From Eubacteriales bacterium (GTDB lineage: Bacteria > Bacillota > Clostridia > Lachnospirales > Lachnospiraceae), in contig JAUNAK010000010.1 in the NCBI GenBank assembly GCA_030527665.1, forward strand, positions 1 to 50,017: DNA of 50,017 bases, in the 5' to 3' direction. How positions within the stretch are numbered: position 1 is the first letter of the stretch; every line of letters starts with the position of its first letter. The notes below the pieces were generated by a model that did not search any database, was not told the origin of the DNA, and was given only the letters and a program-made list of their open reading frames with translations. The translations under genes and the position numbers were made by a program. This document shows, piece after piece, positions 22,467-32,400 of the stretch.

Positions 22467-23180
22467 CTAGATAATATGCAGGATCCGAAACAGCCTCTCC
22501 GGCTGTCCGTTCAGGATCAGTTCTTCCGGAAAATCCACCGAGCGGACCATTCGTTCCGCCCAGGTAAAATCCCCGATATGCCCGGTTCCATGACTGTCAC
22601 TGGACAGCAGGACCGGCAGTTTCTTTTTTCTGCATTCCTCCAGCAGTGCCCTGTAATTATCTCTTACATCCCCCCGATATCCTTCCGGAGAAAGAGAGGA
22701 ATTGTTCACTTCTAAAATTACTCCGTATTCCGCAGCCGCTTCCGTCAGCCGGTCGTAATCCAGCGGATACCGGGTATCATCCGGATGCCCGATGATCCGG
22801 ACGCCCTTGTGCCGCATGGCAAGTGTATAAGCCATGGTATTTGCTTCCCTGCAGCCGGGCTTCAGATTCTGGTAATGCACACTTGCAATCGCATAATCCA
22901 GCCGATCCAGAACTTCTTCCGGAATGTCGATCGTTCCGCAGTAGTCCACGATATTCACTTCCGCTCCGTAACAGAGCCGAACTCCCTGCCGCATGGCAGG
23001 TCCGTTTGCCAGACTTCGAAAATAGGAAAGCGTTCCCGCCGCCCGTGTTGCAGGACCGTGATCGGTAATCCCCAGAACTTCGATCCGTTTTGCGGCAGCA
23101 GCTTTGGCCATATCCGTAATGGTACAGGAAGTTCCATGTCCGCTTGCTATTGTATGTGTATGCATATCACAATGGTACAT
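22467..23180 (-). CDS. PHP-domain phosphoesterase (YcdX-like)
   Basis: 237-aa PHP-domain protein with a full set of metal-binding motifs: CDMHTHT (residues 4-10), ITDHG, YGAEVNIV, ASVHY, IGHPDD and SSDSH near the C-terminus. This set forms the three-metal site typical of YcdX-like phosphatases. The substrate is unknown. It starts with GGAGG upstream and sits between the HPr-kinase-like gene and pduU inside the BMC operon, which is not a standard Pdu location. It lacks an encapsulation peptide, so it is probably cytosolic. Confidence 0.85.
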   Translation of the reverse strand: MYHCDMHTHTIASGHGTSCTITDMAKAAAAKRIEVLGITDHGPATRAAGTLSYFRSLANGPAMRQGVRLCYGAEVNIVDYCGTIDIPEEVLDRLDYAIASVHYQNLKPGCREANTMAYTLAMRHKGVRIIGHPDDTRYPLDYDRLTEAAAEYGVILEVNNSSLSPEGYRGDVRDNYRALLEECRKKKLPVLLSSDSHGTGHIGDFTWAERMVRSVDFPEELILNGQPERLFRILHII

Positions 23181-23256: not shown

Positions 23257-23985
23257 TCAATGAATTTTTTCGATTTCACGATGCATCGCTTCGTAGGCAG
23301 TCATCACTGCCTGATGCGATATATCACACTGCATGCGGTATACCGGAACCGTATTGATCAGTCTGCTCAACAGCATTTCGTTTTTCTTCTGCAGTTCCCA
23401 GGGAGCCGCGTGTAGCGACTGATCATTGACAAGCGGTTTTGCTTCCGCGTAACCGATTCGCCGAATCCGGTTTGTCTCTCCTTTTTCCAGAAAACAGATT
23501 CCTTTTACCGGAACCCGGACATTCGTATTGAGATGTGTTTTTCCGTCCCAGGGTGCTCCGTATACATAGACACGATCCTGCAGAAAGCGGATCAGCGGTT
23601 TATCATCGTTGATCATTGTCACATGGGTGCCGAATACCTCCCGCCACAATTCCGCATGTGTGGATTTACCTCCTCCGGAAGGTGCTGAAAACAGATAGGC
23701 TTCTCCATCCTTCTCAACTGCCGAAGCATGAAAAAAAACGGTATCAAACAGCAATGCTTTCTCGCAGAATGCACGGTAAACGGAAATCGCCTCCAGATAT
23801 TCTTCGGAAAATCCGCCGCCTTCCAGCTTTCTTTCCCGTTCGATCATTCCATTGGAAACCGAAATAAAAATCGATGTTCTCTGCTTCGATTCATCCGGAA
23901 TCCGATATTTTTTCATCAATTCACAGGTATATGCACCTGCGCCTTCTACTGCAGCGGTAAGATCGGCAAGCTGATATTTGGGCAT
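23257..23985 (-). CDS. HPr-kinase-like P-loop protein
   Basis: 242 aa. The Walker A motif SAPSGGGKSTHAELW (about residues 99-113) and the downstream aspartate pair INDDKPLIRF match the HPr kinase/phosphorylase-like fold, also used by PqqD- and lasso-peptide-linked kinases. The N-terminal part (about 90 residues) has no recognisable domain, and the HPr kinase C-terminal signature is not evident. It begins 11 nt after the adenosyltransferase stop with GAGGAG upstream, so it is part of the operon. No RiPP or PqqD gene is nearby. A substrate kinase or regulatory kinase for the compartment is possible; the function is not established. Confidence 0.75.
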   Translation of the reverse strand: MPKYQLADLTAAVEGAGAYTCELMKKYRIPDESKQRTSIFISVSNGMIERERKLEGGGFSEEYLEAISVYRAFCEKALLFDTVFFHASAVEKDGEAYLFSAPSGGGKSTHAELWREVFGTHVTMINDDKPLIRFLQDRVYVYGAPWDGKTHLNTNVRVPVKGICFLEKGETNRIRRIGYAEAKPLVNDQSLHAAPWELQKKNEMLLSRLINTVPVYRMQCDISHQAVMTAYEAMHREIEKIH

Positions 23986-31678: not shown

Positions 31679-31734
31679 ATACGCATATCTCTCCAAATAA
31701 ATCCTACTATTTTCCTCCGATTTACAGCAGCTTT

Positions 31735-31763: not shown

Positions 31764-32036
31764 CCTGAGATTACTTTTCCTTATTTTCCCTTACTTCCGC
31801 TTCCCCTTGCTCGTCTGTATTTTCCGGTCGGAGCAGCTGTCTCCCCTATGTTTTTCCTCAGCCGCTTCTGCACCTTCTCCCGCCGGTTCATCATTATTTC
31901 CGGTTTCAGGGTAAAAAAAAAGCCCCTTCTCAGGGACGTGTCGTAAAAGTGGTGGGGGATTACTTCGGATTGCTTTCTTATTCTGCGGAAAATCTTTCAT
32001 CAACTAGCTGCGGAGGAAAATCGATGATCGATAAAA

Positions 32037-32132
32037 TAAAAAATGCCTGTTCCGAAGTATCTCACCCTGCCGTTTAACCATGCATAAATCCTGCTCTAAG
32101 GTTTCTGGCGGAGTGATTACTCGTTCAGGCAT
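32037..32132 (-). ncRNA. Long nested hairpin with U-tract after the B12 riboswitch
   Basis: On the minus strand ATGCCTG (32126-32132) pairs with CAGGCAT (32043-32049), followed by six T. Between them successive short stems nest (CGAG with CTTCG, TCACTC with GGGTGA, GCC with GGC, ACC with GGT, GCA with TGC), giving one elongated hairpin of about 90 nt with internal loops. It is likely both a terminator and a structured RNA in its own right. No open frame lies between it and the riboswitch. Confidence 0.6.
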
Positions 32133-32185
32133 TCCATATCTTGCGACTTGGATGGAAACTATTCTCGGTAGTCTCAACCTTCTTC

Positions 32186-32351
32186 TATCATGGCAGGTTT
32201 CCTGACTTATGGATCACCACCCAGCACGCCTTCTCGTATTGCGGATATACAATGGCATCTTGTGCTTCGCTCCCCATTTACAGTGACCGGATCGTCCAGG
32301 ACTTGCACCTGGTTCCCTCTCAGCATTTCTGCTTCACCACAAAAGATGATA
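32186..32351 (-). ncRNA. Cobalamin riboswitch (orphan)
   Basis: The minus strand shows the cobalamin-riboswitch core: GAGGGAACCAGGTGCAAGTCC, GGTCACTGTAAATGGGGAGCG, AGATGCCATTG, AGAAGGCGTGC and the B12 box AAGTCAGGAAACCTGCC. A closing stem pairs TATCAT (32346-32351) with ATGATA (32186-32191). The RNA is followed by the 32037-32132 hairpin and not by any cobalamin transport or synthesis gene; the next gene, cysE, has its own promoter. Confidence 0.92.
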
Positions 32352-32369
32352 TAGAATTTATACATGCCA

Positions 32370-32400
32370 TTATAATAGCACACACTCCCCTGTGGGTCAA
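32370..32400 (-). promoter_or_regulatory. Promoter of the cobalamin riboswitch RNA
   Basis: Minus-strand TTGACC with TATTAT after a 17-nt spacer (TATAAT overlaps three bases on), just upstream of the riboswitch. It directly follows the terminator of the DUF4349 gene. Confidence 0.7.

Follow-up and report, generated by a model that had tools for sequence, protein, structure and literature searches.

To our knowledge, few riboswitches that control a trans-acting RNA have been described, chiefly in Listeria and Enterococcus. According to published accounts, the Listeria RNA Rli55 is a full-length transcript of about 450 nt without B12 and a 200 nt RNA with B12 (PMC8079631), and ANTAR-binding hexaloops in Rli55 and in EutX of Enterococcus sequester EutV (PMC8079631, PMC8934654); the aptamers associated with eut genes are reported as class IIb (PMC11477304). 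AspocR, described in a pdu context, is a 1,400-nt RNA antisense to pocR that a B12 riboswitch permits at low B12, and SreA, from a SAM riboswitch of Listeria, is the terminated leader itself, which forms with the ligand and pairs with an mRNA in trans (both in PMC8079631).

We analyzed a 50,017-nt stretch of a Lachnospiraceae genome, probably of the genus Bilifractor (assembly GCA_030527665.1, contig JAUNAK010000010.1), hereinafter the window, in which an earlier note, made from the sequence alone, had described an orphan cobalamin riboswitch ending in a long hairpin and proposed that it was a B12-sensing regulatory RNA. As in the published descriptions of Rli55 and EutX, a B12 riboswitch attenuator would govern a non-coding RNA domain (the body); however, theirs comes with ANTAR hexaloops whereas hexaloops in the Lachnospiraceae bodies occur at chance level, and the eut aptamers are reported as class IIb whereas the best clan model for the Lachnospiraceae unit is RF00174. 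As described for AspocR, a B12 riboswitch would allow a regulatory RNA at low B12 in a pdu context, the low-B12 production being a prediction here, but the Lachnospiraceae RNA would be about 450 nt long rather than a 1,400-nt antisense transcript. The two open reading frames (ORFs) opposite or beside the RNA in the window match no Pfam family, and the relatives of the RNA sit between varying genes, which argues against an AspocR-type antisense to one gene. With SreA, as described, the RNA would share the derivation from a riboswitch and the predicted pairing with mRNA in trans, except that its body would be separate and formed when the ligand is absent. The overall design matches Rli55, EutX and AspocR, but by the tests performed here the RNA domain is a new one, with no excess of hexaloops, no Pfam-matched gene opposite and no Rfam match. 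The features of the locus are collected in Table 1.

Table 1. Features of the riboswitch-body locus in window coordinates
Feature	Position	Strand	Basis or remark
Promoter-like site TTGACC-17-TATTAT, TG before the second hexamer	32372..32400	-	promoter scan; similar element in aligned relatives
P0 5' strand AUUCUAUAUC, 5' end of the RNA	32348..32357	-	complementary to 32131-32140
Cobalamin riboswitch aptamer (RF00174)	32175..32356	-	99 bits, E 1.3e-23
P13-like hairpin GAGACUACCGAGAAUAGUUUC, loop with CCGAG	32155..32175	-	reading by eye; named by analogy
P0 3' strand GAUAUGGAAU, first block of the body	32131..32140	-	complementarity to P0 5' strand
Long nested hairpin (element of the earlier note)	32042..32133	-	folding; U-tract 32041-32033 behind it
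T1, the long hairpin plus U-tract 32041-32033 (candidate B12-dependent terminator)			U-tract absent in most congeners
Block ACGGCAGGGU	32064..32073	-	core ACGGCNGGGU invariant in the 23-sequence alignments A5 and A6
Closing stem, 5' strand GGGUGAGAUACUUCGGA	32051..32067	-	covariation
Hairpin 2, covarying stem presenting the C-rich loop	31997..32028	-	covariation, folding
M1, UUUUCCUCCGC, C-rich anti-Shine-Dalgarno-like loop	32010..32020	-	conservation; predicted unpaired probability 0.82 in the window
M2, UUUUCCGCAG, second C-rich motif	31983..31992	-	conservation
Closing stem, 3' strand UCCGAAGUAAUCCCC	31955..31969	-	covariation
Terminal intrinsic terminator GUCCCUGAGAAGGGGC-U9	31913..31937	-	scan; 1.0 such site expected by chance

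The match to the RF00174 covariance model covers all model positions (1-189 of 189) and far exceeds the gathering score of 31.5, in agreement with the earlier claim of a full cobalamin riboswitch; binding of cobalamin and a resulting change of expression are the functions predicted for this aptamer. The promoter proposed ahead of it, which is sigma-70-like, was also recovered, with a similar element in the aligned relatives that reach that far; the scan by itself is weak, shuffled sequences yielding 1.5 such sites per region. Behind the riboswitch there is neither a B12 gene in the window nor a convincing ORF, as the note had stated: the longest ORF of the window body has 42 codons and is lost in relatives, and no ORF is kept between relatives among the 18 of 33 bodies examined, which speaks against a small protein product. 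The frame of the downstream gene cysE starts at 31696, and the promoter of its own that it had been credited with did not materialize, the sole promoter-like site between 31500 and 32600 being the one ahead of the riboswitch. At the level of sequence, the locus combines its own promoter and terminator with the lack of an ORF, as expected of a trans-acting sRNA. No Rfam 15 family matches the body (window 31900-32174) above threshold, the best being AaHKsRNA20 with 16.7 bits against 43 (E 5.4). A repeat or mobile element was discarded as an explanation, the genome having no second copy of the body (the next match by E-value spans 19 bases). Elsewhere in the window, an ordinary ribosomal protein L10 leader (RF00557, 63.6 bits) lies at 9476-9348 on the minus strand.

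The elongated hairpin with its U-tract is confirmed as a structure (-38 kcal/mol, z -4.6, equaled by none of 200 shuffles) but not as the end of the RNA at 32037. In eight Bilifractor sequences compared by eye, conservation of the body extends some 80 nt farther in the 3' direction, to about 31955, just before the terminator at 31937-31913, so that the originally proposed element is too short on this side. When the hairpin at 32037-32132 is aligned across relatives, only the window and, to a lesser degree, G015 show a well-formed basal stem with a U-tract; in the aligned congeners these elements are mostly lost and the blocks behind them are kept. U-rich terminators are seen 3' of the body in many relatives. 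A search of 61 genomes with the whole unit recovered it over its full length in 6 of 15 congeners, with identities of 75-79%, and the downstream part alone matched in 9 of the 16 genomes of the genus, including the source genome and G010, counted by a piece at a contig end only. In more distant members, e.g., L176, the block ACGGCAGGGU is variable.

The unit is spread over the family. Model R1, built from the body alone of eight Bilifractor sequences with no riboswitch included, matched 11 of 397 family genomes, and RF00174 lies upstream of the match in 10 of these but is absent in G244. A pattern scan of named genomes produced 20 loci, some being one locus reached twice, from Bilifractor, Fusicatenibacter, Candidatus Scatomonas and Lacrimispora, among others; an Rfam scan placed RF00174 directly ahead of the body in 18, the exceptions being L102, which is cut by the contig end, and L085, the G244 match (29 bits), which was dropped as false for lack of the riboswitch. 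The sequence-only model R2 (cut-off E 0.05 or better) matched 37 of the 397 genomes, comprising the 10 of R1 and nine new ones with RF00174 upstream (L176-L183 and L185). Among the 20 new R2 loci scanned, these nine have the riboswitch and the other 11, all weak (E 0.004 or worse), do not; seven further weak matches were left outside the riboswitch scan. Altogether, the riboswitch-body unit, with the body 31-187 nt behind the cobalamin riboswitch, is present in at least 19 of 397 family genomes from 14 genera, a lower bound because the search filters lose weak matches; the weakest three of the 19 (G354, G067 and G234; 18-23 bits) were counted on the strength of the riboswitch. Outside the family, 251 genomes of the order (partly of the same family) gave four weak matches, none with a riboswitch, which were taken as false. 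In the open-licence literature on the topic and genus, no title or abstract opening names such an RNA.

No R2 match lies behind the other cobalamin riboswitches (seven loci) of the source genome, G005 and G006. The genes behind these other riboswitches in the source genome (G000) encode a CbiK-domain protein, a permease and, judged by eye, a FecCD-like ABC transporter. The CbiK cobalt-chelatase-domain proteins behind cobalamin riboswitches (L196, at G000:C10:44291-44497, and L199) have a lipoprotein-like N-terminus and are possibly involved in B12 or corrinoid uptake. An unusual partner is the Xan_ur_permease gene (PF00860) behind the cobalamin riboswitch L197 (G000:C68:7981-8156, 78.6 bits).

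The gene neighborhoods of the unit differ between genera. In Bilifractor, valS is downstream of the RNA in seven of the eight congeners read (in G002 behind an EAL/GGDEF gene), and in G011 the contig ends before any valS; the window instead has cysE followed by the pdu genes in this position. In other genera, valS follows the RNA in L090, L094 and L089, with a T-box leader between body and valS in the latter two, and is on the other side in L083; among the remaining neighbors are a gene for a MATE pump (L102), one for an aminotransferase on the upstream side (L101) and some unnamed frames. Because the neighbors vary, riboswitch and body likely constitute a stand-alone RNA gene (32400-31913, minus strand) rather than a deletion remnant. 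The claim of a riboswitch-controlled regulatory RNA, as opposed to the leader of a B12 gene, is thereby supported: the unit recurs in 14 genera next to varying genes. A truncated member of the RNA family in L185 (body 1501-1567) lies 47 nt upstream of a gene for a cysteine-rich small-domain protein (PF04071, 1175-1453, minus strand) and may act in cis.

Two stems of the body are supported by covariation. Exchange of arms between sequences (21 of 33 bodies) weakened hairpin 2 from -10.8 to -4.8 kcal/mol and the closing stem from -26.6 to -18.1 kcal/mol, values not reached in any of 20,000 permutations for either stem; this test keeps relatedness in, with most near-identical rows left out. It was chosen over RNAalifold, whose result for 8 sequences was a partial structure that could be used but which, because of register shifts, returned only six invariant pairs for 23. 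These six never vary and join ACGGCNGGG to CCUCCG, which could be a real contact that competes with M1 as a seed. The invariant blocks ACGGCNGGGU (32064-32073) and CCUCCG (32010-32020) are mutually pairable, which might lock the C-rich loop from within; covariation cannot address invariant pairs. The predicted minimum fold of the full window body retains the long hairpin and not the closing stem, the two being alternatives because both use GGGUGA. Complementarity between the 5' leader and the first block of the body (P0) was found in all 28 loci and reaches -8.4 kcal/mol or better in 26; this evidence is weaker because a motif was used to locate the partner and the two blocks are conserved in themselves.

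The C-rich loop M1 (UUUUCCUCCGC) is nearly invariant, and folding predicts it to be open, with an unpaired probability of 0.73 against a mean of 0.41 and values that exceed the mean in all 21 sequences, as expected of a conserved unpaired seed. When hairpin 2 is folded singly with M1 held open, no more than 16 of the 31 sequences reach a z below -1, and the hairpin 2 scan found no M1 in the divergent L182 and L185. In L178, L180, L181 and L183, the first C-rich motif resembles UUCCGCAA and lacks the extra UCC, and the second often carries UCCUC; the two motifs may be interchangeable.

The direction of B12 control is suggested by the anatomy of the loci. In 11 of 28 (L088, L089, L099 and L176-L183), aptamer and body are separated by an intrinsic terminator with a U-tract, and in several of them its tail leads directly into UAUGGAAU. 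The script had named 14 loci, of which L095, L097 and L185 were excluded as not being separate terminators; for L176 and L177, its terminator was replaced by one plain in the sequence. The aptamer 3' strand CCUGCUU is complementary to the 3' arm of the terminator in seven of the 11 loci, and a terminator together with this complementarity has the layout of a B12-OFF attenuator. Because the terminator separates the aptamer from the RNA in these 11 of 28 loci, B12 should switch the RNA off. Another 16 of the 28, including those of the window and its Bilifractor relatives, have just 31-43 nt between aptamer and body, and no separate terminator was counted there. In the window, the aptamer CCUGCC (32197-32192) has its complement, GGCAGG (32071-32066), in the long hairpin, and T1 may play the part of the attenuator. 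B12-OFF control is less clear in the clade of the window, where the mode of B12 action is uncertain because most congeners have lost the U-tract of T1.

With a probability of roughly 0.55, we interpret the unit as a B12-switched stand-alone RNA that would be complete only at low B12 and would act in trans, via the C-rich loop, on ribosome-binding sites. In this scheme, scarcity of B12 would lead to full-length transcription of riboswitch and body, and bound B12 to termination ahead of the body, in the window via T1, with the aptamer CCUGCC competing for GGCAGG of the hairpin. The loop UUUUCCUCCGC is complementary to the strong Shine-Dalgarno sequence GCGGAGGAAAA and could thus pair with mRNAs, so that selected transcripts would be translationally repressed by the full-length RNA; those for enzymes that consume B12 would make the most sense. 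B12 would be spared in this way, in analogy to the sparing of iron by the sRNAs RyhB and FsrA, of which FsrA is C-rich and which are under the control of the repressor protein Fur. The proposed likeness is that scarcity of a cofactor induces an sRNA that shuts off the users of this cofactor; unlike in RyhB and FsrA, the Lachnospiraceae RNA would read the cofactor through its own riboswitch rather than through Fur.

The C-rich loop might just as well be bound by a protein, and the main competing explanation, which we deem unlikely though worth keeping in view, is that the body binds and titrates a protein by the logic of Rli55 and EutX. The plan, a B12 riboswitch and attenuator followed by an RNA domain with the blocks ACGGCNGGGU, UUUUCCUCCGC and UUUCCGC, is the same, and an open invariant block is as compatible with protein binding as with a seed. 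The ANTAR antiterminator, the only protein known to be titrated in this manner, does not fit, however. The A1/G4 hexaloops with a stem of five or more pairs occur in 6 of 33 bodies, where mononucleotide shuffles would give 4.9. An ANTAR protein is encoded in all 26 RNA carriers, which alone were scanned, mostly once, and in each of the four loci read (three of them in Bilifractor) its gene adjoins a glutamine synthetase gene. A sponge for EutV or another ANTAR protein, as in the precedents cited in the earlier note, is not supported by these two results. The binding of some different protein is what is left of this explanation.

An improbable reading is that the body is a second aptamer or a compound leader acting in cis on the next gene. 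Near-invariant nucleotides are typical of aptamers, valS comes next in several genera, and L185 has the PF04071 gene close downstream; but the next genes vary by genus and often lie behind a U-rich terminator, and the T-box leader that intervenes before valS in L094 and L089 also speaks against cis action of the body on this gene. A short B12-sensing RNA terminating at the 32037 U-tract, with the rest a spacer, would account for the resemblance of the window hairpin and U-tract to a good terminator, but given that conservation and covariation persist beyond this point and that the U-tract is missing in most congeners, we consider it very improbable. A lone window with an orphan riboswitch would also look like the remnant of a deletion in which the B12 gene was lost. 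Such a history is barely credible for a unit common to 19 of 397 genomes and 14 genera, with no B12 transporter adjoining it among the neighbors read, whose names were mostly assigned by eye; the case that could have overturned the regulatory reading, a transporter lost from behind the riboswitch, fails for the same reasons.

If the interpretation as a B12-switched trans-acting RNA is correct, the combination of a riboswitch with a trans-acting RNA would be widespread, occurring in at least 14 genera of Lachnospiraceae, and different RNA domains could follow the same B12 switch. How these bacteria cease to produce B12-dependent enzymes upon shortage of the vitamin becomes a testable question.

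A further step, possible but tentative in our estimate, would be an RNA-only B12-sparing regulon across Lachnospiraceae, in which an adenosylcobalamin riboswitch as the sensor and an anti-Shine-Dalgarno effector are joined in one transcript that turns off the translation of enzymes using B12, with the genes of the pdu microcompartment among the targets; such a regulon would be the cobalamin counterpart of RyhB and FsrA, operating without a repressor protein. The neighboring bacterial microcompartment (BMC) locus is indeed of the B12-dependent type, with pduC, pduD, pduG and a PduO-type adenosyltransferase. The suggested link to it stands only in part: RNA and pduC co-occur in genomes, but in other Bilifractor the RNA precedes valS, away from pduC. 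In none of eight congeners, with 4-20 kb read around the RNA, does the unit lie beside pdu genes, so the adjacency is confined to the window; seven of the eight have pduC, each on another contig of a draft assembly. Within the genus, pduC is present in eight of nine RNA carriers against two of seven other genomes (p 0.035). In the family sample, the corresponding counts are 5 of 19 carriers, leaving 14 carriers without pduC, and 21 of 378 others (p 0.005); with the two Bilifractor genomes removed, they are 3 of 17 and 21 of 378 (p = 0.08). The genome-level link between pduC and the RNA is moderate.

The predicted pairing of pduC with M1 is uneven. By energy, pduC ranks 3rd of 93 genes in G004, 5th of 71 in G002 and 7th of 28 in G011, and falls within about the best 5% in G008, but pairing is poor in G015 and in the source genome itself, where pduC ranks 33rd of 43 and 74% of background genes pair better. 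Judged by energy alone, pairing is good in G007, middling in G264 and poor in G132 and G428, the latter three having no background genes and G007 only eight; in G014 the pduC start is cut off by the contig. For G007, G008 and G015, the starts used here were read individually; the pooled test relies on automatic starts, which are wrong in these three. In that test, M1 pairs better with pdu genes than with the background; the Shine-Dalgarno sequences of pdu genes are, however, also the stronger ones, and the enrichment is confounded for this reason. Because of the uneven pairing and this confounding, pdu is a candidate target only. An exact search for GCGGAGGAAA-N2-12-ATG was uninformative, with matches in all 16 genomes of the genus (5 to 14 in carriers, 4 to 12 in non-carriers); of the matches in the source genome, one is the RNA gene itself and one lies inside pduG.

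Two features of the pdu-type locus and its surroundings are worth recording. An HbpS-like gene (PF03928, 30009-30470, minus strand) stands alone between cysE and pduC, with gaps of more than 200 bases on both sides. Inside the locus, there are a gene with a weak ScmC/HprK-related match (23257-23985) and a PHP-domain gene (22467-23180), both on the minus strand and atypical for pdu.
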